A stretch of DNA of 56,878 nt from Campylobacterales bacterium (GCA_024280035.1 JAJRQV010000044.1:1-56878); one strand, 5' to 3'; shown: positions 1 through 12,067, counted from the stretch's first letter. Numbers and translations are program-made. The notes: generated by a model not told the origin, from the sequence alone.

Positions 1-1106
1 GTTTCAATCTTTGCATTCATAAAAAAGTCATCAGGGATATTCTTTGTTCTAATATCAATGGCACCCCCACCAAATTGCGCTGGCATATCTGCTGAATATG
101 TTTTTTGAACCGAAATACTATCAATAATAGCCGCAGGAAAAAGAGATAAGGGGACAACACGACGTGTGGGTTCTGGGCTTGGAATACCAAGACCATTAAG
201 TGTTGCTGTTGTATAGCGTTCACCTAAACCACGAACATAAATACTACCATCAACAATAGTAACTCCAGAGAGACGTTTAAGCGCACTTTGGGCATTTGAA
301 TCACCCGACTTACTCATCTGATCGGAACCAATAATATCTTCAACCTTAGCCGAGTTTCTTTTCTCATTAATAATAGAAGAGATAGACCCTCCGACATGGG
401 GGGCTAACACAACAAACTCTTCTAACTCCATAGATGAAGGGGAAAGTGTCACATCTTTTGTAACTAACTCTTTAGCAATCATTTTTACTTTTATACTCTG
501 GGTAGAAAAGTCACTATGAATAATAGAGATTGTGTATTCACCCTCTGCTAACTCCATAGAAACAGAGCCATCTGCCTTAGAAAGAAAATCCATACTTTGC
601 CCTTGGACAAAAACACGTGCATCTTTCACTGGGCTAGAGTCTTCTTCTGAACTAATCTTAAGTAGAAGTGAACCCTTTATCTTCTTTTTTGTTTGAGAAA
701 TACGAGTAGTGTTTTGTGCTGCTGGTGATTCCGTATCTGAGAAGGCTAAAGACCTGTCTTTTTTAAGCGATAAAATCACTTGAGACTCTTTATCTCTTTT
801 AATACTAAACTTCTTTTTCAAAAAAGCCAAGGCAATACCATCTTTTTTTGCAAAAAGGTGTAGTTTATACTCTCCCGTAGGAAGTTCTGTACTCACATAA
901 CCATCTTCATCTGTCACATACTTTGAGTACTTCTCATATCTTGGCTTTTCATTCTCATTAAGAGCCTTATGCTTTTTAAACACAACAAGTTCTTGATTCG
1001 CCAAGGGTTTTCCATCTTCTAATAAGAAAACTGTTAAATCACCTGTATTAACTACGGCGGCTAACAAAGAACCCATTAAGGCGATAACTAAAATTAAGGC
1101 TCTCAT
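1..1106 (-). CDS. TonB-dependent outer-membrane receptor, 3' part cut by window edge
   Basis: An open frame runs from the ATG at 1106 to the window edge; about 368 N-terminal residues are visible. It starts with a short signal peptide. Two beta-sandwich segments of carboxypeptidase-regulatory type follow (about residues 20-75 and 130-190), the second running into a TonB-box-like acidic stretch ending EEFVVLAP. A plug domain comes next, with NAQSALKRLSGV, VRGLGERY and GGGAIDIRTK, all typical of TonB-dependent receptors. The beta-barrel lies outside the window. The start codon overlaps the stop of the upstream TPR gene (ATGA), so it is the last visible gene of the TtpC/ExbBD/TonB operon and shares its upstream PhoB-type sites. 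The ligand is unknown; the context suggests a phosphorus-containing or phosphate-limitation-related substrate (inference). Confidence 0.88.
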   Translation of the reverse strand, partial: MRALILVIALMGSLLAAVVNTGDLTVFLLEDGKPLANQELVVFKKHKALNENEKPRYEKYSKYVTDEDGYVSTELPTGEYKLHLFAKKDGIALAFLKKKFSIKRDKESQVILSLKKDRSLAFSDTESPAAQNTTRISQTKKKIKGSLLLKISSEEDSSPVKDARVFVQGQSMDFLSKADGSVSMELAEGEYTISIIHSDFSTQSIKVKMIAKELVTKDVTLSPSSMELEEFVVLAPHVGGSISSIINEKRNSAKVEDIIGSDQMSKSGDSNAQSALKRLSGVTIVDGSIYVRGLGERYTTATLNGLGIPSPEPTRRVVPLSLFPAAIIDSISVQKTYSADMPAQFGGGAIDIRTKNIPDDFFMNAKIE

Positions 1107-2248
1107 ATTTCACACTCCCAACCATCATTTTCACATTTGTGTATGTTTTTACGTAATTCTGTTGCTTTTGCAAAAAGGTCAGGACGTGTAAGCTGTTTCA
1201 ATTGATTTTCACTCTTTTTAAAACGGTATGTCATATAATAAGAGTATGCCAAGGCATAACGAATCATTTCATCTTCTATCAGACCACTTCGTCTTAAGGC
1301 TTTTTCACTCACAATAATTCTCTCATAAGCAGCAAACTCAATATAAATAGCAATACGCTGTTTTAATTTCTCTTTCATATCTAACATCTGAGAGTTTTTA
1401 TATAAGGCAATTATAAACTGTTGAGCACGACGCATCATTTCAGCAGCTTCTTTAGTATATTTTCTATCTTCAATAGAGGCTTCATCAAAAAGCTCTGCTG
1501 CAGCTACTAACATCTCTTTATCCATATATAAATGTGCTAAAAGAACAGTTACCTTAGCTGACTTAATATATTGAAGATTTGCCATTTCTGCTAATTCAAT
1601 AGCCTTATCTGTGTCGCCACTCTCTTTTAAAACAGAGATAAAAGCTAATACTGTTTTTTCATTAGCCTCTGCATTTTTTAGATAAACCTGAGCATCATTT
1701 AATGCTGCTTGATACAGACGAAGTGTCACAAGATAATTAAAACGCTGTTTATAAAAAATCCACTCAGAAGGAAAAAGTCTAAGACCCTTTGATAAGGTAA
1801 CTAGAGCTTCATTTTCACGCTTTAATCTCCAATTACACTCTGCTTCAAGCGCAATAACTGAAGGTTTTTTATCGGCTAAGTCTCGTACCTTAGTAATAGC
1901 ATCTAAACTTTCTTGATACTTTTGGAGTTTATAAGCATTTTGCGCAATATAAAGATACAAGGCTCTATCAGCACCCTCATAGCTTAAGGCTTTTTTAAAG
2001 CTTAGGTTCGCTTTTTCATAATTAGAAAGTTTTGTATACACCAATCCGTCAATGGTATAAAAACGAGCTAGGTCAAGCTTCTCTTTGTTAAGGTCTACCT
2101 GCTTTAACTCCTCTTTTGCACGAGAAGTAAAACCATCTTTAAGAAGAAGTGCTGCTAGTGCCAAGTGGTCTATCTCATCTTGAGATTTTGTATCTGCCGC
2201 AAAACTATTAAGGACAATAACTAAAATTAAAACTAATACTTTTTTCAT
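1103..2248 (-). CDS. TPR-repeat periplasmic protein of the TonB2/Ttp system
   Basis: A 381-residue protein with a cleavable signal peptide (ends near SFAA). The body is almost wholly helical with repeated TPR-like pairs (for example around residues 60-100, 128-165 and 230-260), and the tail carries two Cys (KCENDGWECEI). In gammaproteobacterial TonB2 clusters a TPR protein regularly follows tonB2, and the same position here supports a role as periplasmic partner of TonB or the receptor. It starts 8 nt after tonB and overlaps the receptor start by 4 nt, indicating translational coupling. Its molecular function is not established by sequence. Confidence 0.8.
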   Translation of the reverse strand: MKKVLVLILVIVLNSFAADTKSQDEIDHLALAALLLKDGFTSRAKEELKQVDLNKEKLDLARFYTIDGLVYTKLSNYEKANLSFKKALSYEGADRALYLYIAQNAYKLQKYQESLDAITKVRDLADKKPSVIALEAECNWRLKRENEALVTLSKGLRLFPSEWIFYKQRFNYLVTLRLYQAALNDAQVYLKNAEANEKTVLAFISVLKESGDTDKAIELAEMANLQYIKSAKVTVLLAHLYMDKEMLVAAAELFDEASIEDRKYTKEAAEMMRRAQQFIIALYKNSQMLDMKEKLKQRIAIYIEFAAYERIIVSEKALRRSGLIEDEMIRYALAYSYYMTYRFKKSENQLKQLTRPDLFAKATELRKNIHKCENDGWECEI

Positions 2249-2256
2249 AACTAATC

Positions 2257-2886
2257 CTATTGAAGATCAAAGCGAATTTTCTGTTTCGCCCAGACCTTAA
2301 CTGCTTGACCCTTATATTGAGCCGGTTTAAAGTGCCAAGATTTTACTCCTGCTATAGCCACTTCATCAAACACATCTGCAGGTAAAGACTCAAGCACTTT
2401 TACCTTCTCTACATCTCCATTTTTATTTACAAGTAAATTCATTAAAACATAACCTGATATACCCAGTTTTCTTGCTTTCTTAGGATACAGCATTGCCGTT
2501 CTTTCACTTGGAGTAGGAGCAACATCTACAGAGTCTTCACTCATAATCATATTTTTTCCTACATCTCCAAGAAGTGCATCATCCATATTCATATCTTCAG
2601 ACATAAAAGCATCTAAACCGGTATCAATTCCACTTAAAGATGACGATAAACTTGGCACAGAAGCAGACCTTTTTGCCTTAGCTCTTTTTGGTTTCTGTTT
2701 TGGTTTTGGTTTTGGTTTCGGCTTTGGTTTTACACTCTTTTTTGCCACAAAACCCATGCTCTCGTTTTTCTTTTTAGGCTCAAGTATGCCACCATTGTCA
2801 TTCATTAAAATAAGCAATGAAAAAACAAAAACAAGACCAAAAACCATCCAAACCGATGCTTTTAGGATGTTAAGCTTATTTTTCAC
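2257..2886 (-). CDS. tonB: TonB energy-transducing protein
   Basis: A 209-residue protein with the TonB layout: an N-terminal membrane anchor (about residues 12-28), a Lys-Pro-rich periplasmic spacer (about 45-70, repeated KP units ending in a basic KAKR stretch), a low-complexity linker and a C-terminal TonB domain (about 125-209) containing YPKKARKLGISGYV, a KVLESLP segment and the conserved SWHFKPA. It would carry proton-motive energy from ExbB/ExbD to the outer-membrane receptor encoded two genes downstream. Only 1 nt separates it from exbD. The gene order matches TonB2-type systems. Confidence 0.93.
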   Translation of the reverse strand: MKNKLNILKASVWMVFGLVFVFSLLILMNDNGGILEPKKKNESMGFVAKKSVKPKPKPKPKPKQKPKRAKAKRSASVPSLSSSLSGIDTGLDAFMSEDMNMDDALLGDVGKNMIMSEDSVDVAPTPSERTAMLYPKKARKLGISGYVLMNLLVNKNGDVEKVKVLESLPADVFDEVAIAGVKSWHFKPAQYKGQAVKVWAKQKIRFDLQ

Positions 2887-2887
2887 C

Positions 2888-3292
2888 TTAACCTACCTCT
2901 TTCTCAGTTGCAACAGCAACATCTTTAGCCCCTGCCATACGACACTGGTCCACCACTTCGATCAATTTATCTACAGCAATGGTGTCATCAGTAATGACTA
3001 AAACAGAGCCTTGTGCCGAAGCACGTAAAAGGTCACGAACCTTTCCTTGAATAGCCCATGTTTTGACAGGTTGAGTATCTACATAGGTATCTCCAAGATT
3101 ATCAATATAGACACGAATCACCTTTGAAGATGCCTTTGATGCCGAAGAAGCTCCTGGACGATTAAGGTCGAGTTTCATATCTTTTGTAAAGGTAGAACTC
3201 ACCATACAAAAGATTAATAGAATAAAAACCATATCAATCAGTGGTGACATATCTACATCAATTTCTTTTGCTTTTCGTGGACGAAATTTCAT
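2888..3292 (-). CDS. exbD: ExbD biopolymer transport protein
   Basis: A 134-residue protein with one N-terminal membrane helix holding the conserved Asp (DMSPLIDMVFILLIFCMV) and a periplasmic domain, the size and layout of ExbD/TolR. It forms the proton channel with ExbB and drives TonB. A gap of 118 nt separates it from exbB upstream, unusual in this otherwise closely packed operon; the gap contains a perfect 6-bp inverted repeat. RBS-like AGGATAC precedes the start. Confidence 0.93.
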   Translation of the reverse strand: MKFRPRKAKEIDVDMSPLIDMVFILLIFCMVSSTFTKDMKLDLNRPGASSASKASSKVIRVYIDNLGDTYVDTQPVKTWAIQGKVRDLLRASAQGSVLVITDDTIAVDKLIEVVDQCRMAGAKDVAVATEKEVG

Positions 3293-3309
3293 TTAAGTAT
3301 CCTCTGTAT

Positions 3310-3324
3310 GAGTTCTTAGAACTC
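3310..3324. promoter_or_regulatory. Perfect inverted repeat between exbB and exbD
   Basis: GAGTTC-TTA-GAACTC, a perfect 6-bp inverted repeat with a 3-nt spacer, lies 18 nt before the exbD start inside the only large gap of the operon. There is no T-run, so it is not a typical terminator. It could be an RNA processing hairpin or an operator. Function is unproven. Confidence 0.3.
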
Positions 3325-3410
3325 TTTTATATGAAAATTGGTTCTTCCCATTTTCAATCTTAATGCTAAGTGCTTTTTGGTATAAGCCCCCGACTAGACT
3401 GAAATCCAGA

Positions 3411-4037
3411 CTATCTTTCATTCGGAGAACCTTCGGGCTCTTTTGTTGATAAAATATCTTTTATCTGATCTAAGTCTGTAATCATATTGTCTTGTTTTCT
3501 GTCCAAAATACGCCCTATAATTAATCCAGGAACTGCCACTACCAGACCCAATTGTGTGGTAAAAAGTGCTTGAGAAATTCCCCCTGCTATCCCTCCTGTT
3601 TGTGAGAACAAAACAGAATCAGCAAGTGAATCAAAGGTCTCAATCATTCCAATAACTGTTCCTAAAAGCCCAATAAGTGGAGCTGCAGCAACAATCGTCA
3701 TAACTAGACGTCTGTACTTAGCCATCTCTGCCAAATGATAAGCAAAAACATCATCTAAATACCTACGTGTTTCACGTGTTCTTCCATAAGCATCCACAAT
3801 AGAAATCGCTTCAACTATAGCGCCATCAATCAAACCCTTTGTATCTCTTCTAATCCCCCTGCTGTACTTTCTTACAAGATTTCTAACATTTGCATTTGAT
3901 CCACGTTTTAAGGTGTGATATCTATATCCAAGGGCATACCAAAGTATTATGACGGAGATAAAAAGGGGCCACATAACTAATCCGCCACTTTGCATATACT
4001 CAATAAACTGTCTAAAAAATTCTGTTAAGGTTTCCAT
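3411..4037 (-). CDS. exbB: ExbB/TolQ-family proton channel protein
   Basis: A 208-residue MotA/TolQ/ExbB protein with an N-terminal membrane helix (SGGLVMWPLFISVIILWYAL, about 17-37) and two later helices around residues 112-135 and 155-178. The ExbB signature AAAPLIGLLGTVIGMIETF precedes the second helix. It lacks the long periplasmic extension of its upstream paralogue and therefore corresponds to ExbB2, while the upstream gene corresponds to TtpC. It starts directly next to the TtpC-like gene's stop. Confidence 0.92.
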   Translation of the reverse strand: METLTEFFRQFIEYMQSGGLVMWPLFISVIILWYALGYRYHTLKRGSNANVRNLVRKYSRGIRRDTKGLIDGAIVEAISIVDAYGRTRETRRYLDDVFAYHLAEMAKYRRLVMTIVAAAPLIGLLGTVIGMIETFDSLADSVLFSQTGGIAGGISQALFTTQLGLVVAVPGLIIGRILDRKQDNMITDLDQIKDILSTKEPEGSPNER

Positions 4038-5351
4038 TTAGTACTGCTTGTTATACTCATTAATGATATGCAGTGCTGAATGCTCCATTGAGTCTTTAAT
4101 ACGCTCAGCCCAACCACCAAGAAGGTTTCCAAGCATTAGTACAGGAATGGCAACAATTAAACCTAATTCTGTAGTTACAAGGGCAATTGAGATACCTCCT
4201 GAAAGTAACTTAGGGTCACCTGTTCCAAACTCAGTAATAATGTCAAAGGTTGCAATCATCCCAGTTACCGTTCCTAATAAACCTAACAAAGGAGCCACCG
4301 CGGCAACCACTAAAATCACTGAACCAAAACGGTCTAATCTTCCACTCTCATGCAAAATTGCTTCAGATACAATATCTTCAATATGTTCACGCTCTCTATC
4401 AAGATTACGAATAGTTGATTTAATGACTCGTGCTGTTGAACCTTTTTTAGCCTTCATAAAAGCTAAGGCTTCATCTTTACCGCCTGTTAATAACTTTTCT
4501 AAGGCTTGTTTAGCAAGAACACCTGTTGACTTACTTGCACCCAATAAGAAGAAAACTCTTAAGATAACAAGTAAGATAGCCACCGCACCAAGTGCCATGA
4601 TTACCCAACCAATAATTCCACCTGAGTTAATAACATCAATAACTGTTTTCTCTGTAGCATCTGCAATCTCTTTATTTGCATTTTCATAAATAAACATATG
4701 AATACTATTGGCTTGCGTTCCTGCTGATAAAGCAACTGCCGTTTCTCCTGCTTCTGGAGCATTCCACAATTTGAACTTACCTGCACCTGCTGGAACTAAA
4801 GCACCTGAAGCTGAGTCAGAAATAGCATAAGAAGCAATATTCCCAACCTTAACAATTTGAGCATCTATTTCACTTCCATCTTTAACATAAAAACTACCCT
4901 TCTGAACTCTTACGCTAGAAAGCTTTTTAATTAGTGCATTAGCCTGAGTAAAAATAGTCTCTAAAGAGCTTTGATAGGCATTAGGATCAACCTGAACATC
5001 TACCCCATAAGGTTTTAATGTAGCTGCTGATTGCATAGCTACATTTTCTAAAAGTGAAGTATCATCTGAAATCACCTGCGCATTTTGGTGTGTTCTAAAA
5101 AGTTCATCTTCAAGTTTTTCACTCTGAGCATTTCTTTTAAGTACCTTGTTTTGTAAAACACTAAGGTCTTTTTTGGCTATAGTAATATTTTTAGACTGGC
5201 TTGACTTAAGCTCACTAAGACGTTTTGTAAGCATATTTTTTTGTGCTTTTAAGTAAGCAAACTCTTTAGCATACGCACGTTCTAATTCTGACTCTGTTGC
5301 TGCAAATAGGCTTAAACTTGCTATTAATAAAACCAATACAATCTTTTTCAT
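4038..5351 (-). CDS. ttpC: TtpC-like long ExbB-family protein
   Basis: A 437-residue protein with a signal peptide (ends near LFAA), a long periplasmic coiled-coil region (about 20-110) and a globular part, then three membrane helices with a MotA/TolQ/ExbB domain (about 240-430; APLLGLLGTVTGMIATFD). This two-part architecture is that of TtpC, the additional component of Vibrio-type TonB2 systems. The start overlaps the stop of the DUF3450 gene (TAATG) and the stop abuts exbB. The symbol is given by architecture and gene order, not by an alignment. Confidence 0.85.
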   Translation of the reverse strand: MKKIVLVLLIASLSLFAATESELERAYAKEFAYLKAQKNMLTKRLSELKSSQSKNITIAKKDLSVLQNKVLKRNAQSEKLEDELFRTHQNAQVISDDTSLLENVAMQSAATLKPYGVDVQVDPNAYQSSLETIFTQANALIKKLSSVRVQKGSFYVKDGSEIDAQIVKVGNIASYAISDSASGALVPAGAGKFKLWNAPEAGETAVALSAGTQANSIHMFIYENANKEIADATEKTVIDVINSGGIIGWVIMALGAVAILLVILRVFFLLGASKSTGVLAKQALEKLLTGGKDEALAFMKAKKGSTARVIKSTIRNLDREREHIEDIVSEAILHESGRLDRFGSVILVVAAVAPLLGLLGTVTGMIATFDIITEFGTGDPKLLSGGISIALVTTELGLIVAIPVLMLGNLLGGWAERIKDSMEHSALHIINEYNKQY

Positions 5352-6109
5352 TATTTAACCTCCACAGCAGCTATCGCATTAGGTAGAGTAAAATAACCTG
5401 AACGAATCTGCTTTTTAAATGAGTCAAACAAGGCTAAGACCTGCTCTTGCTGCTCTTTTTCTACAAGCTCTTTATAGTACCAACCCTTTGAATCCTTATC
5501 TACAAAACCAACTTTATCATCAGGAAGTTTGTAAAACATTGCTACGGTTCCAAGACGGGCTACCTCAGCTAAACGGTCTGTTCCACCAATTTTGATAGTC
5601 TGTTTAAAGATACCATTCTCTTTTGTCATACGAATGGCATCACCATAAGCATTCCAGGTAAGGGCTAAGGCCTTTTGAGGAGCAATAAGACTAGCATTAA
5701 GTTGTGAACGAATCTTTTCAATATCATTAAGACGTTCTGTCGTTTTAAAAGGAAGTGCTATTTTCACATTAGCTTCTAAGATGTCTAAGGCATTTAAAAC
5801 AAGAGGTTTAAGCCCTTGTGTATTTTTTCCTGCTTCTTTAATCTCTTTTTTTACCTTAGTTAACTCTCTTTGAATCTGTTTGATTTTAAGATCTTCTCTT
5901 GCCACCACTGATTCTAAGTCATTTTTCTGACGAAGAAGTGATCTCATTGATGCCTTATACGCATCTTTTTCATCTGTAATAGAAGCATCAAGTTGTTCAA
6001 CGTCTGCTCTAAGTTTCATTAATGATTCCGCCATATTGTTTGACGAAGCATAAAGTGATGTTGTCCCTAGAACAACAACTACTGCCATACTTAGCATAGA
6101 TTTTCGCAT
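5351..6109 (-). CDS. DUF3450-family periplasmic coiled-coil protein
   Basis: A 252-residue protein with a signal peptide (ends near SLYA), a long coiled coil (about 28-95) and a helical C-terminal half. DUF3450 proteins are regularly the first gene of TtpC/ExbB/ExbD/TonB operons, as here, and are thought to work with TtpC in the periplasm; the exact role is not known to me. RBS AAGGGAAG precedes ATG 6109. Upstream lie four tandem PhoB-type half-sites, making this the first gene of a seven-gene, probably phosphate-controlled, operon. Confidence 0.85.
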   Translation of the reverse strand: MRKSMLSMAVVVVLGTTSLYASSNNMAESLMKLRADVEQLDASITDEKDAYKASMRSLLRQKNDLESVVAREDLKIKQIQRELTKVKKEIKEAGKNTQGLKPLVLNALDILEANVKIALPFKTTERLNDIEKIRSQLNASLIAPQKALALTWNAYGDAIRMTKENGIFKQTIKIGGTDRLAEVARLGTVAMFYKLPDDKVGFVDKDSKGWYYKELVEKEQQEQVLALFDSFKKQIRSGYFTLPNAIAAVEVK

Positions 6110-6154
6110 GCATTCTTCCCTTAGTCTTATATGAAAGAATTTTAGAAAAAAGGA

Positions 6155-6193
6155 GTTACTTTAAAGTTACTAAGAAGTGACCGTTTGGTTACA
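6155..6193 (-). promoter_or_regulatory. Four tandem PhoB-type half-sites upstream of the TonB/Ttp operon
   Basis: Read in the direction of transcription, half-sites TGTAAC, GGTCAC, AGTAAC and AGTAAC occur at exactly 11-bp steps (plus-strand gttac/gttac/gtgac/gttac start at 6155, 6166, 6177, 6188). PhoB-family boxes are 11-bp direct repeats, and the Campylobacter PhosR box has the form GTTTC-N6-GTTTC. The array ends about 46 nt before the DUF3450 start. That this organism's PhoB binds it is inference. Confidence 0.75.
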
Positions 6194-6261
6194 AAAAGAG
6201 GATTAAAAAAAAGAAAAAGAAAGTAAGAAGATTGGATCTCTTCTTACTTGAGGATTTATCT

Positions 6262-8562
6262 CTACGGAGCTACATAGGTTCCATTAAAGATTGCTTCGGT
6301 TTCAGAGGCAAGAACACCATCTTTTCCGGAGAAGTTTATATTATTATCAGAATTAAGCGTTACTGCAGTGAATGCAATTTCACCATTATCACGTGTTGCT
6401 GTATTTCTAATCATAAGGGCTGCTATGCCTAGCACTGCTGATTTCGAATTTACCGTACCCGTAATAAATTTAGCACCCGTACCTTCACGTAAGTAGATAC
6501 CTTCTCCACCCGCTGCTGTTGTTGTAATACTAAAGTTAGCAACTGTTGGATTTGAACGGGGGATGCCATCATGATTTGAACCATCATTATCGGCTTCAAT
6601 TCCACGTGAACCATCATCTTTTACATTTGATTGTGTAATAACAAGCCCATCAACAGAACCTGTCCAACCATGATCCCAATCAAGTGAATCATCAAAGGCA
6701 TTTGTAATCGTTATGTTCGTAAGACCAACTGTTCCACCCCATAACTCAATACCATCATCCGCACCATTTTCTACAATAATATTATCAATAACCGTTCCTG
6801 AGCCTATACCTGCTAATGAAAGACCATTGAGTTCAGCATCTATTGATACCTCATAACCTGTATTTCTAATCGTTAGATAACGTAATGTTCCTGAACTTTC
6901 TGTATTAAAGTCTGTTGTAGCAGAACCAAATTTAAGTGAGGTGTCTGCTTCATAAGACTCTTCACCCTTATTGGTTTGTGCTCGCCCTAGAAGCGTAAGC
7001 CCACCCCATTGACCTTGAGCATCTCCACCACCAAGTATAGCTATTTCAGAAGTAAATAAGATACGTGCGTCTGCTCTACCATTCGCTTCAAGTTTAGCCC
7101 CTTGTTTAATGGCTAAATATGAACCATCTGTTCCATACATTGTAATTCCTGCTGGAATAGTAAGGGTTGCACCACTCTCTACTAAAACTGCACTTATAAT
7201 CTTGTACAAGTCCGCAGATGAAAGTGTCATATTAGATGTAATACTTGCTGGAAGTACACAGACTTTCTTCGCCCCTATAACACCATCTTGTATTGTACCT
7301 GCTACACAAGGAACACCAAGATTAAAGATTGCTTCGGTTTCAGAAGCAAGAACACCATCTTTTCCTGAAAAGTTAATATTATTTGTAGAGTTAAGACTTA
7401 CCCCTGAAAATGAAATTTCTCCATTATCACGTGTTGCTGTATTTCTAATCATAAGGCTTGCAATTCCCGTTACTGTTGAGTTAGAGTTTACGATACCATT
7501 TACGAACTTCCCACCTGTACCTTCACGTAAGTAGATACCTTCTCCCGCATTAGCTACTGTTGAGATAGTAAAGTTCTCAATGGTTGGATTTGAACGGGGG
7601 ATTCCATCATGATTTGAACCATCATTATCGGCTTCAATTCCACGTGAACCATCATCTTTAACGGTTTGTTGAATAATAGTAAGCCCATTTACTGAACCTG
7701 TCCAACCGTGATCCCAATCAAGTGAATCATCAAAGGCATTAATAATAGAAACACCCTGAAGCGTTACTGTTCCACCCCATAATTCAATACCATCATCTGC
7801 ACCATTTTCTACAAGAATGTTTTCAATAATAGTTCCTGAGCCTATACCTGCTAATGAAAGACCATTAAGTTCAGCATCTGTTGAAACCTCATAACCTGTA
7901 TTCCTGATAATAAGATTACGTAAAACACCTGAACTTTCTGCATTAAAATCTGTTGTAGCAGAACCAAATTTAAGTGAGGTGTCTGCTTCATAAGACTCTT
8001 CACCCTTATTGGTTTGTGCTCGCCCTAAAAGCGTAAGCCCACCCCATTGACCTTGACCTGCTGCTCCACCCAGTACCTCAGCTTCTGAAGTAAACACAAT
8101 AGGTCTTTGTGAAGTAGCATCTGCATTCAGTTTAGCGCCTTGTTTAACCGCAAGATATGCTCCTGTTGTTCCAAAAAGCTGCGTTCCTTCTTCTATCGTT
8201 AAGGTAACACCATCTTCAACCAGTACAGCTGAAGTAATTCTGTACATATTACCTGTTGGTAAAGTAAGGTTTGACGTAATACTTGCGGGAAGCTCACATA
8301 CCTTATACCCTTGAAGTGTAATTGTTTCTGTTGTTGTTGCTGGACAAGGTGTCGTCCCTGGTGCATTAATCTCACCATCAATAACAATAGTACCTAAGGT
8401 AGAGTCATCAGTTGTAGTATCACCTGTTGTGGTTGGTGTTACTGTACCATCTCCATAATTAAATGTGATTGTATCACCATCACCACCGCCACAACCTGTT
8501 AATAATAACGTAGTTGCCGTTAATGCACTTAAGACTAAGCTTTTTGAAGTTTGAAGTTTCAT
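6262..8562 (-). CDS. Duplicated parallel beta-helix lipoprotein, phosphate-regulated context
   Basis: A 766-residue predicted lipoprotein with lipobox LLTGC (Cys24) and a Thr/Asp-rich linker, followed by two copies of a domain of about 346 residues (about 73-418 and 419-766). Each copy has short Gly/Asn/Asp-rich beta strands typical of a right-handed beta-helix and carries WGGLTLLGRA, DDGIELWGGTV, FDDSLDWDHGWTG and GIEADNDGSNHDGIPRSNP. The acidic loops suggest metal binding (inference). The two copies are nearly identical in long stretches. RBS AGGGAG precedes ATG 8562, and three 11-bp-spaced PhoB-type half-sites lie upstream. It stands between a phosphate-regulated TonB operon and phoB-pst, so a surface ligand-binding or hydrolytic role with the receptor is plausible. 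I do not recognise a characterised function. Confidence 0.75.
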   Translation of the reverse strand: MKLQTSKSLVLSALTATTLLLTGCGGGDGDTITFNYGDGTVTPTTTGDTTTDDSTLGTIVIDGEINAPGTTPCPATTTETITLQGYKVCELPASITSNLTLPTGNMYRITSAVLVEDGVTLTIEEGTQLFGTTGAYLAVKQGAKLNADATSQRPIVFTSEAEVLGGAAGQGQWGGLTLLGRAQTNKGEESYEADTSLKFGSATTDFNAESSGVLRNLIIRNTGYEVSTDAELNGLSLAGIGSGTIIENILVENGADDGIELWGGTVTLQGVSIINAFDDSLDWDHGWTGSVNGLTIIQQTVKDDGSRGIEADNDGSNHDGIPRSNPTIENFTISTVANAGEGIYLREGTGGKFVNGIVNSNSTVTGIASLMIRNTATRDNGEISFSGVSLNSTNNINFSGKDGVLASETEAIFNLGVPCVAGTIQDGVIGAKKVCVLPASITSNMTLSSADLYKIISAVLVESGATLTIPAGITMYGTDGSYLAIKQGAKLEANGRADARILFTSEIAILGGGDAQGQWGGLTLLGRAQTNKGEESYEADTSLKFGSATTDFNTESSGTLRYLTIRNTGYEVSIDAELNGLSLAGIGSGTVIDNIIVENGADDGIELWGGTVGLTNITITNAFDDSLDWDHGWTGSVDGLVITQSNVKDDGSRGIEADNDGSNHDGIPRSNPTVANFSITTTAAGGEGIYLREGTGAKFITGTVNSKSAVLGIAALMIRNTATRDNGEIAFTAVTLNSDNNINFSGKDGVLASETEAIFNGTYVAP
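6288..8364 (-). repeat. Internal direct duplication of about 1,038 bp
   Basis: The lipoprotein gene contains two in-frame copies offset by 1,038 bp (346 codons). For example, a matching segment begins at 6291 and again at 7329, and the segments around 6560-6620 and 7600-7660 are almost identical at DNA level. Other parts (for example around 7020-7240 versus 8060-8280) have clearly diverged. This mosaic suggests either selection on some motifs or partial gene conversion. Confidence 0.8.
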
Positions 8563-8763: not shown

Positions 8764-9441
8764 ATGACTAAAGCACTTATATTAATTGTTGAAGATGATA
8801 AAGATTTATTAGAGCTCTTAGAACATCGCTTAGAAAAAGAGAATTACGAAACCCTAGGATTTTTAAGCACTAAGTATGTAAAAAATGTATTAGATGAAGA
8901 AGAGGTTGACCTTATTATTATGGATAGAAACCTGCCTGATGTAGAAGGGTCTGAATATATCTCTATGCTAAGAGAGCAGGGTATGAATGTACCTGTTATT
9001 TTTCTTTCAGCAAAAGGGAGTATGGATGATATCGAAGAGGGATTCTTACGAGGTGGGGATGACTATATGACAAAACCATTTGAGCTTAAAGAACTTCTTT
9101 TACGTATTAATGCTCTATTAATGCGTACTAAAAAAGATATTAAAAAAGAGGTTCTAACCTTTAGGGATATTGTTATGGATCTTAACCTTAGAGTTACAAG
9201 AATAAAAGAAATTCCTGTTGAGTTAACAAAACTAGAATTTGACCTTCTTCTGACTTTTATTAAAAACAGAAACAGTGTTTTGCAAAGAGACTATCTTCTT
9301 AAAAATGTTTGGGGAGAGGGAAAAACAACAGAAGAGAGAACAGTTAATGTTGCAATTAAACGACTTAAAGAGAAGATAGACCCAACACAGACAAACAACT
9401 ACATCAAAACAATCCGTGGAATTGGCTACAGTATCCATTAA
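8764..9441 (+). CDS. phoB: PhoB/OmpR-family response regulator (PhosR-like)
   Basis: A 225-residue two-domain regulator. The receiver domain (about 1-120) has the acidic pocket DD near residue 12, phospho-acceptor Asp54 (IIMDRNLP) and conserved Lys in YMTKPF. The C-terminal winged helix (about 130-225) has LTKLEFDLLL and TIRGIGY typical of OmpR/PhoB. RBS GGGAAGAG precedes the ATG. It is followed by pstCAB, and boxes of its own expected type precede all four flanking transcription units, supporting a PhoB/PhosR role. No PhoR/PhosS kinase is adjacent; the partner must be elsewhere. Confidence 0.87.
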   Translation: MTKALILIVEDDKDLLELLEHRLEKENYETLGFLSTKYVKNVLDEEEVDLIIMDRNLPDVEGSEYISMLREQGMNVPVIFLSAKGSMDDIEEGFLRGGDDYMTKPFELKELLLRINALLMRTKKDIKKEVLTFRDIVMDLNLRVTRIKEIPVELTKLEFDLLLTFIKNRNSVLQRDYLLKNVWGEGKTTEERTVNVAIKRLKEKIDPTQTNNYIKTIRGIGYSIH

Positions 9442-9459: not shown

Positions 9460-9487
9460 GGTAATCTTTATGTAACCAAAATGAAAT
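9460..9487 (+). promoter_or_regulatory. Three PhoB-type half-sites upstream of pstC
   Basis: GGTAAT, TGTAAC and TGAAAT start at 9460, 9471 and 9482, exactly 11 bp apart. The pstC start is at 9563. This is the expected place for a Pho box, and its match to the arrays before the TonB operon and the lipoprotein gene ties those genes to the same regulon. Confidence 0.7.
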
Positions 9488-9562: not shown

Positions 9563-10423
9563 ATGAACAAGTTTTTAGATCGGTTTTTTCATCTGTCAAC
9601 ACTCTCTATTGCTCTGTTAACCCTTCTTATAACAGGCGCAATTTTTGGCGTCTTGTTTGAAGAAGCTAAGCCTGCAATAGATGCCTTTGGTTTTGAGTTT
9701 ATTACGAATTCAAAATGGGCACCAAATCTTGAAAAATTTGGTGCCTTACCTGCTATTGTTGGTTCAATTATGTCAACAAGCTTAGCTATGGGACTTGCTG
9801 TTCCTGTTGCTATTGGAGTGGCTATCTTTCTTTCTGAAATTGCACCTGAGAAACTTAAGAATCCTGTTGGTATTTCTATTGAACTTCTTGCCGCGATTCC
9901 TTCTGTTATCTACGGTATGTGGGGGCTTTTTTATTTTGTGCCTATTATTAGAGATGCCTTCGGTGGTCTAGGCATCGGGCTCTTAACAGCAGGAATTGTG
10001 CTTGCCGTTATGATTCTTCCTTTTATGGCTGCGGTCACACGAGATGCTATGAATACAACACCTGATATCTTAAAAGAGTCTGCCTACGCTCTTGGTGGAA
10101 CAAAATGGGATGTCGTCAAAGATATTGTTATTACTTATGCCAAAGCAGGAATTATTGGAGCCGCTATCTTAGCCTTAGGTCGTGCCGTTGGTGAAACCAT
10201 GGCAGTAACCTTTGTGATGGGTAATGTGCATAAGATTCCTTCCCTTATTACTGATCCTACGACCTCTATTCCAGTGGCATTAGCAAATGAGTTTGCTGAA
10301 GCAGATGAAGACTTATACTTCTCTTCTTTGTTCTACTTAGCCATGATTTTATTTATGATGTCTTTTGCTGTCATTACCTTTGCTAAGTTCGCCTTTTTAA
10401 AACGAGGAAGGAGTGCTAAATGA
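9563..10423 (+). CDS. pstC: Phosphate ABC transporter permease PstC
   Basis: A 286-residue inner-membrane permease with about six helices and the BPD-transport signature around residues 170-200 (KESAYALGGTKWDVV, the EAA-type loop that contacts the ATPase). ALGRAVGETMAV is diagnostic of PstC/PstA. It forms the phosphate channel with PstA. RBS AGAAGAA precedes the start. The stop overlaps the pstA start by 4 nt. No pstS precedes it, which is unusual. Confidence 0.93.
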   Translation: MNKFLDRFFHLSTLSIALLTLLITGAIFGVLFEEAKPAIDAFGFEFITNSKWAPNLEKFGALPAIVGSIMSTSLAMGLAVPVAIGVAIFLSEIAPEKLKNPVGISIELLAAIPSVIYGMWGLFYFVPIIRDAFGGLGIGLLTAGIVLAVMILPFMAAVTRDAMNTTPDILKESAYALGGTKWDVVKDIVITYAKAGIIGAAILALGRAVGETMAVTFVMGNVHKIPSLITDPTTSIPVALANEFAEADEDLYFSSLFYLAMILFMMSFAVITFAKFAFLKRGRSAK

Positions 10424-11268
10424 GTTATACGGAAAAAAGAATCCTGATAAATAAGCTTGTTATGGTTTTATCAACACTTTCAGCACTTATTGGAATGGGT
10501 TTTTTATTATGGATTTTAAGCATCTTAGTTATTAATGGTATTGATGCAATTAACTGGAATATCTTTATTTATGAAGGTGCACCTCCTGGTTATGAAGAGT
10601 CTGGGCTTAAACATGCCCTTATTGGTCAAGCTCTGCTGATTGGTGTTTCAACTTTAATTGGTGTTCCTCTTGGAATTTTAGCAGGGACTTACCTAAGTGA
10701 GTATGGTGGGCTAAAATCTAAACTGGCTAATATTATTAGAGATATCTCAGATATTATGATGTCAGCACCTTCTATTGTCATTGGCTCTTTTGTTTACGCA
10801 GTTATTGTTGCACCTATGGGTAACTTTAGTGGTTGGGCAGGAATTGCGGCATTAAGTATCATTATGGTGCCTATTATCTTAAGAACGACTGATGATATGC
10901 TCCAGCTTGTTCCTTCAACCTTACGCGAAGCAGCTTTTGCTCTGGGTGCACCAAAATATAAGGTTATCTTACAGGTTGTGCTTCGTGGGGCTAAAACAGG
11001 TATCTTAACTGGTGTTTTACTTGGTGTGGCAAGAGTTTCTGGAGAAACCGCTCCGCTTCTGTTTACCTCATTTAATGATAACTTCTTAAACACCGACCTA
11101 AGTGAGCCAATTGCTTCACTTACGGTTACGATGTTTAATTATGCAACCAGCCCTTATGAAGACTGGCAAAAACTAGGATGGGCTGCGGCATTTATCTTAT
11201 CCATGTTTATTTTAACACTAAATATCCTTGGAAGAGTTATATTAGCACCAAAACGAAATAAGAAATAA
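10420..11268 (+). CDS. pstA: Phosphate ABC transporter permease PstA
   Basis: A 282-residue permease paralogous to PstC, with six predicted helices, the motif [15 protein letters not shown] facing the ATPase, and [15 protein letters not shown] typical of PstA. It starts inside the pstC stop (ATGA overlap) and is followed 13 nt later by pstB, with RBS AGAGAGA, so the three genes form one operon. Confidence 0.93.
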
Positions 11269-11281
11269 GAGAGAGATTATT

Positions 11282-12067
11282 ATGGCAACTATTATCAACA
11301 TCAAAGAAGAAAAAGCACTTGAAACGAAGAAATTTGAATTTACTTATGCGGGTGCACCTGAACCTAGTTTAAAAAACATCTCTATGCCCATTGCGAAAAA
11401 CAAGGTAACGGCACTTATCGGTCCTTCAGGTTGTGGAAAAACAACACTTCTTCGTTCATTTAACCGTATGCATGATCTTTACCCCGGTAACAATTATGGT
11501 GGGGAGATTCTTTTTGAGGGGCGCAATATCCTAACAGAAAAAGAGGATATGATTAAACTTCGTACGCAAATCGGTATGATTTTTCAAAAACCCACGGCAT
11601 TTCCTATGAGTATCTTTAATAATGTTGCTTATGGGCTTCGTCTTAAGGGTATAAAAAATAAGACTGAACTTGCGGATCGTGTTGAAAAAGCACTTAAAGA
11701 CGCCGCGATCTGGAAAGAGACCAAAGCACGTCTTAAAGATGATGCTAATGGTATGTCAGGGGGGCAACAGCAACGTCTTTGTATTGCAAGAGCCATTGCT
11801 GTTGAGCCAGAGGTTTTACTTTTTGATGAACCTACCTCAGCACTTGATCCTATCTCTACTCAGGGTATTGAAAGATTAATTATTGAACTTAAAGAGAAGG
11901 TCTCTATTTTAATTGTTACACATAACATGCAACAAGCTGCTCGCGTATCTGACTATACAGGTTTTATGTATCTTGGTGACTTAATTGAACTGGGTAAAAC
12001 AGAAGAACTTTTTGTAACCCCTGCTGAAAAACTTACAGAAGAGTATATTACAGGTAAGTTTGGTTAA
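11282..12067 (+). CDS. pstB: Phosphate ABC transporter ATPase PstB
   Basis: A 261-residue ABC ATPase with Walker [10 protein letters not shown], PstB-specific [11 protein letters not shown] directly after it, Q-loop [10 protein letters not shown], signature [14 protein letters not shown], Walker [14 protein letters not shown] and switch His in [12 protein letters not shown]. It energises phosphate uptake through PstCA. No phoU follows, so the common PstSCAB-PhoU unit is incomplete here. A short GCCTAT/ATAGGC inverted repeat lies just downstream. Confidence 0.95.

Follow-up and report, generated by a model that had tools for sequence, protein, structure and literature searches.

A candidate Pho-regulated TonB system of the Ttp type with a beta-helix lipoprotein in Campylobacterota and other phyla

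Gene content of the locus and its continuation on a second contig

The window analysed here is a stretch of 56,878 nucleotides that forms the start of contig C47 in the assembly of a Campylobacterales bacterium (GCA_024280035.1, JAJRQV010000044.1:1-56878; genome of 2.5 Mb in 107 contigs). Its positions 1-8562 are filled by eight minus-strand genes, all confirmed as open reading frames (Table 1). A large lipoprotein gene, here called HELIX, is followed by TtpB (DUF3450), TtpC, ExbB, ExbD, TonB, TtpD (a TPR protein) and a TonB-dependent receptor, and a phoB-like gene with pstCAB adjoins. Counted from the receptor, the gaps among the seven genes up to TtpB are -4, 8, 1, 118, 0 and -1 bp; HELIX lies 152 bp upstream of TtpB and has its own promoter region. 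DUF3450, TtpC, ExbB, ExbD, TonB and a TPR protein are thereby united in one operon, which is the gene content of a TonB2-type energiser. The Pfam domains were as expected, namely Plug and CarboxypepD_reg in the receptor, TPR, TonB_C, ExbD, DUF3450, and MotA_ExbB in both ExbB and TtpC. The first-pass annotation had described seven coupled Ttp and receptor genes beside phoB-pst and a large lipoprotein, and the reading frames, domains and gaps confirm this arrangement; all seven genes are present, but the receptor is incomplete at the contig edge.

The missing part of the receptor was found on contig C23. Residues 323-368 (46 aa) are encoded a second time, with 100% identity, by the terminus of that contig, and the two contig ends have exactly 141 bp in common, which gives a joined receptor of 1047 aa. 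In Arcobacter NORP14, the order PhoB / HELIX-TtpB-...-receptor-Lcl-PhoA runs unbroken on one contig and independently supports the join. An assembly artefact is ruled out by the exact overlap together with the Arcobacter order. Beyond the receptor barrel, C23 carries an Lcl_C-domain protein, a small ORF, two PhoA alkaline phosphatases, phoR, phoB, phoU and pstS. Among the loci read, this genome and Arcobacter are the only ones with PhoA beside the receptor. The second phosphatase (PhoA2) is, like HELIX, a predicted lipoprotein.

Table 1. Genes and candidate regulatory sites at the start of the window
Feature	Position	Strand	Remarks
TonB-dependent receptor, N-terminal part (SpaA-like and CarboxypepD_reg-like domains, plug)	1..1106	-	barrel on contig C23, L005:15045-17222
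TtpD, periplasmic TPR protein	1103..2248	-	TPR_2 and TPR_19
TonB	2257..2886	-	PF03544
ExbD	2888..3292	-	PF02472
ExbB	3411..4037	-	PF01618
TtpC, large ExbB-like, periplasmic N-terminal region	4038..5351	-	PF01618 in C-terminal part; class II clade 100/100
TtpB (DUF3450), periplasmic	5351..6109	-	PF11932, E 9.9e-29; class II group
Pho-box array at TtpB promoter	6155..6192	-	GTAAC-N6-GTCAC-N6-GTAAC-N6-GTAAC, four tandem 11-bp repeats
HELIX, predicted outer-membrane lipoprotein	6262..8562	-	two tandem right-handed beta-helix units, ElpS/FI-like; lipobox C24
Looser candidate Pho-box triplet upstream of HELIX	8607..8633	-	GTCAC-N6-GTGTC-N6-GTAAT; read from sequence, weak alone
Candidate Pho box upstream of HELIX	8651..8666	-	GTAATTAAAATGTTAT
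PhoB-like response regulator, divergent from HELIX, without adjoining kinase gene	8764..9441	+	TIGR02154 PhoB best family
Candidate Pho box upstream of pstC	9461..9476	+	candidate site
pstC, pstA, pstB (phosphate ABC transporter)	9563..12067	+	TIGR02138, TIGR00974, TIGR00972 over cut-off; pstS on contig C23

The phosphate island of this genome holds two PhoB-like regulators, the one in the window and another on C23 (L005:7034-7711). The window regulator matches TIGR02154 at 171 bits, below the family cut-off, and a 73-76% identical regulator occupies the same place in three loci (L130, L145, L154); similar regulators adjoin HELIX or the receptor in many relatives. The phoU gene on C23 (L005:6320-6988) is interrupted by a single in-frame TAA with the remainder of the frame open, which could reflect an inactive phoU, a strain mixture or a sequencing error. 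In several genomes (L005:14520-15041, L154:20209, L164:11377, L183:10342) a small Lcl_C-domain (PF07603) protein is encoded after the receptor, and it is possibly a further member of the system.

Two classes of Ttp proteins and the HELIX lipoprotein

DUF3450 matches over the cut-off in 399 genomes of the order split into two groups: class I, with 30 matches above 200 bits, and class II, with 34 genomes at 77-123 bits, including the window's kind. In a tree of 66 TtpC proteins, in which the classic Ttp proteins of the order are represented by class I and Vibrio TtpC itself is absent, class II makes up one side of a 100/100 branch and is set off from class I by long branches. The class II clade extends to Gammaproteobacteria and Desulfobacterota, whose members, with unclassified proteobacterial ones, are nested among Campylobacterota; one sequence labelled Bathyarchaeota (L149) also falls among Campylobacterota and was taken as mis-binned. 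By this TtpC tree and the DUF3450 scores, the Ttp proteins of the window resolve as a distinct subfamily outside the order's classic Ttp proteins, and the system is not a classic TonB2 system. Two copies of the operon per genome were seen in Ca. Thiovulum imperiosus (L047 and L068, one contig) and in genome G509 (L303 and L304).

HELIX carries the lipobox LLTGC24 and an internal duplication of 343 aa at 75% identity, and its predicted structure (mean pLDDT 84.6) contains two stretches of right-handed beta-helix, so that the earlier description of a duplicated beta-helix lipoprotein holds. Two acidic motifs, DDGIExWGGTV and DDxxDxDxGYxG, are invariant. No family match was obtained in Pfam or NCBIfam, and a profile search against PDB sequences found no relative. 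The fold search returned generic beta-helices only, the nearest being PL6 alginate lyases and other polysaccharide-active beta-helices, and the TM-scores near 0.2 would identify the predicted model as a beta-helix only.

Of the 399 genomes searched in the order, 35 have HELIX, and 30 of these also have class II DUF3450. The discordant genomes number four and five; in the four class II genomes without HELIX, TtpB stands at a contig start in three and the contig ends inside the receptor in the other (G190). A weak HELIX group (26-28% identity; L072, L074-L076) showed no linkage to Ttp genes and was excluded. In a Pseudomonadota sample, HELIX matches occurred in 31 of 299 genomes, and the receptor was the next gene after HELIX for 25 of the 27 HELIX genes read. 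In the window, HELIX and the receptor share one gene string with the Ttp genes between them.

Phosphate genes and Pho boxes around class II loci

In the stretches read, Pst or PHO4 genes lay near the operon in 15 of 34 class II genomes and at 0 of 21 class I loci (Fisher p 3e-4), and the class II count rose to 18 of 34 when strong PhoB-like genes were included (again 0/21 for class I; p 2e-5), p-values that serve only as a guide because the species are related. Ten class II loci had been read with longer flanks than class I, which favours class II in this comparison; without the extension, pst genes were still found at about 10 class II loci against 0/21. In about half of the class II loci, the sequence read contained neither pst genes nor a strong PhoB-like gene, in some cases on account of contig ends. 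Chance adjacency of Ttp and phosphate genes was ruled out by the class I control. The proximity to phoB and pst noted in the first-pass annotation therefore extends beyond this genome: comparable neighbourhoods occur across many genera and several phyla, accompanied by Pho boxes and by pst, PHO4, phoBR, phoA or olsF genes.

The olsF gene, encoding a bifunctional ornithine lipid synthase (OlsF, over the cut-off), adjoins HELIX in 11 of 78 named loci, among them L040, L043, L132, L133, L136, L142, L143, L175, L184 and L192. Ornithine lipids replace phospholipids under phosphate limitation, and OlsF beside HELIX may link phosphorus-saving lipid remodelling to the locus.

Among Gammaproteobacteria, Halothiobacillaceae and Hahella have TtpB..receptor-X-pstS-HELIX-pstC-pstA-pstB as one gene string (PstS by Pfam). 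The X between receptor and PstS in gammaproteobacterial operons is a 361-aa secreted protein without a Pfam family (L125:7639-8724). A search of 369 Gammaproteobacteria for class II TtpC gave 12 genomes above 300 bits, all other matches listed being below 125. As a prediction test, another ten class II loci from Gammaproteobacteria were examined, two of which (L303 and L304) are copies in one genome: the receptor was present in nine, and the contig of the tenth ends before it. HELIX adjoins the receptor in eight of these nine, and the ninth has pstCAB and a PhoB-like gene instead.

Tandem repeats with an 11-bp period, a feature of the Pho regulon, lie upstream of these genes. Upstream of HELIX and of class II TtpB, the distances between GTNAY motifs peak sharply at 11 and 22 bp, with almost none elsewhere. 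A GTNAY-N6-GTNAY pair was present in 22 of 32 class II TtpB regions and 15 of 28 HELIX regions, compared with 2 of 16 class I TtpB regions, counts that rest on one consensus and on neighbouring species that are not independent. As a positive control, pstS regions had the pair in 11 of 12 cases, and dinucleotide shuffles gave a mean of 0.1-0.54 regions with a pair per set. Across the whole genome under study, the triple-box repeat occurs at four places: the TtpB promoter, the promoter of a PHO4 phosphate transporter, one intergenic and one intragenic site. When Fur boxes were sought, the best match in the HELIX/phoB intergenic region was 11/19 against a shuffled mean of 11.7, which is chance level, and the best at the TtpB promoter was 10/19, with none above chance.

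Relation to known systems and proposed function

The Ttp set belongs to an established type of TonB energiser: the TtpB-TtpC-ExbB-ExbD-TonB-TtpD gene set has been described in V. vulnificus, where TtpB and TtpD are needed for TonB-dependent transport and the characterised system serves iron uptake (PMC6957404). Six gene kinds are common to the window and to Vibrio TonB2 (TtpB2-TtpC2-ExbB2-ExbD2-TonB2-TtpD2; PMC6957404). Whereas Vibrio TonB2 is iron-induced, the window system has Pho boxes and includes HELIX and the receptor in its gene string, and its TtpC and DUF3450 proteins stand apart from the order's classic Ttp proteins.

HELIX and its receptor match ElpS (CC0170) and CC0171 of Caulobacter and resemble the FI lipoprotein and TonB-dependent transporter (TBDT) of Flavobacterium, a match made solely on gene order and protein type. 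ElpS is a lipoprotein that Caulobacter produces when starved of phosphate, and it has been connected with alkaline phosphatase activity; it is surface-exposed and later released, and in Caulobacter elpS and cc0171 precede type II secretion (T2SS) genes (PMC2996285). A phosphate-starvation context is common to both systems. The lipoprotein gene stands directly beside the receptor gene for ElpS and for most HELIX genes of the Pseudomonadota sample, with the Ttp genes in between in the window, and one HELIX-receptor pair (L239) likewise precedes gspD-gspE-gspF, a synteny that supports ElpS homology of HELIX. Unlike ElpS/CC0171, for which no dedicated Ttp-TonB module is described, the window system has a duplicated HELIX and its own energiser operon. 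In Flavobacterium, FI, FII and FIII share 31-36% identity with the lipoprotein of Caulobacter, a polygalacturonase-like model was obtained for FI, and the lipoprotein/TBDT pair is strongly induced by phosphate depletion (PMC8115612). The likeness to FI/FII/FIII and the PUSIII TBDT Fjoh_3857 lies in the polygalacturonase-like lipoprotein and the Plug plus CarboxypepD_reg receptor; the phylum differs, and an ExbB or TonB system is unmentioned in that paper (PMC8115612). PusCD of Bacteroidetes also combines a phosphate-induced TonB-dependent receptor, a surface lipoprotein and periplasmic phosphatases (PMC8115612), but its lipoprotein is SusD-like rather than a beta-helix and no Ttp proteins are reported for it.

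Lipoprotein-receptor pairs of this type had thus been reported as phosphate-starvation proteins in Caulobacter and Flavobacterium (PMC2996285, PMC8115612), which the first-pass annotation did not take into account, and the pair by itself belongs to a familiar class of phosphate-starvation module. What is new is the combination of the pair and the Ttp set in a dedicated operon that has Pho boxes and a Ttp branch of its own. For this combination we found no description: a literature search on DUF3450, TonB-dependent and phosphate returned the Vibrio paper only, and the titles and abstracts listed for Epsilonproteobacteria, TonB and phosphate yielded no such system.

Taken together, the distinct Ttp version, the Pho-box signals and the adjoining phosphate transporters and phosphatases suggest that the most likely role of the system is to energise the acquisition of scarce phosphorus at the surface of the cell. 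We put the probability of a Pho-regulated outer-membrane phosphorus acquisition system at roughly 0.8. The phosphorus-linked TonB2-like system with a lipoprotein partner proposed in the first-pass annotation is thus supported by the recurring neighbourhood and the Pho boxes, with no Fur box above chance. From the boxes we infer that at phosphate starvation PhoB would bind the 11-bp-period repeats and activate HELIX together with the operon from TtpB to the receptor; the later steps, including exposure at the surface, the direction of transport and the ligand, are drawn from knowledge of the families. HELIX, as a putative surface beta-helix lipoprotein of the ElpS/FI type, would gather a phosphorus-bearing ligand and hand it to its cognate receptor, while TtpC-ExbB-ExbD would drive TonB with the proton-motive force. 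TtpB and TtpD would be periplasmic coupling parts, since they are essential in the Vibrio TonB2 system. The pull of TonB on the receptor would bring the ligand in, the paired PhoA phosphatases in the periplasm would free phosphate, and PstSCAB would then take it into the cell.

The ligand could be an organic phosphate, favoured by the phosphatase genes beside the receptor here, or phosphate itself, favoured by the gammaproteobacterial strings that have pstS and pstCAB without a phosphatase gene. A version in which inorganic, mineral- or cation-bound phosphate is pumped across the outer membrane, with the acidic motifs of HELIX holding a cation-phosphate complex and the receptor feeding PstS directly, is tentative and rather unlikely. 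Uptake might also be induced by starvation and yet serve a phosphorus-free ligand, such as a glycan or a cation required during starvation, with the beta-helix as polysaccharide binder or lyase. The nearest folds, the polygalacturonase-like model of FI (PMC8115612) and the potential of both HELIX motifs to bind cations point that way, but TM-scores this low indicate a beta-helix only and the neighbours are phosphate genes, not carbohydrate enzymes, so we regard this reading as improbable.

Hardly more probable is export or surface display, in which, during phosphate starvation, the receptor and TonB machinery would secrete HELIX or a phosphatase or display it on the surface. There is a precedent in Myxococcus Oar, a TonB-dependent transporter required for secretion of the protease PopC (PMC6434023), and the predicted lipoprotein nature of HELIX and PhoA2, the release of ElpS from the surface and the type II secretion genes beside some ElpS-type pairs (PMC2996285) would fit. 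However, surface localisation of ElpS in Caulobacter did not need the T2SS, and the protein was still made in the absence of CC0171 (PMC2996285), and strings joining receptor, pstS, HELIX and pstCAB fit inward flow. A TonB2 system for iron or heme whose position beside the pst genes is incidental would agree with the function of the characterised TtpB/TtpC/TtpD system (PMC6957404), but we consider it very improbable, given Pho boxes in place of Fur boxes, a pst/phoB linkage kept over several families and phyla against 0/21 classic Ttp operons, and the presence elsewhere in this genome of three additional TonB and ExbD genes and seven other receptor plug matches.

Ttp-type TonB systems have so far been treated as iron machinery. 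If phosphorus acquisition is the function, a distinct phosphate-bound Ttp branch in several phyla would mean that bacteria maintain an energised path across the outer membrane that is set apart for phosphorus. It would also place the abundant, unexplained ElpS/FI lipoproteins in the context of a whole system and would make phosphorus scavenging in Sulfurimonas- and Sulfurovum-type bacteria testable.

Further gammaproteobacterial genomes have the order phoB-phoR-pstS-HELIX-receptor, in some with a Pho-boxed class I Ttp operon next. Class I operons of this kind, beside HELIX-receptor and with Pho boxes, were seen at L232, L233, L236 and L242, unlike class I in Campylobacterota. As some gammaproteobacterial class I operons are Pho-boxed, the link between Ttp proteins and phosphate may have arisen more than once.
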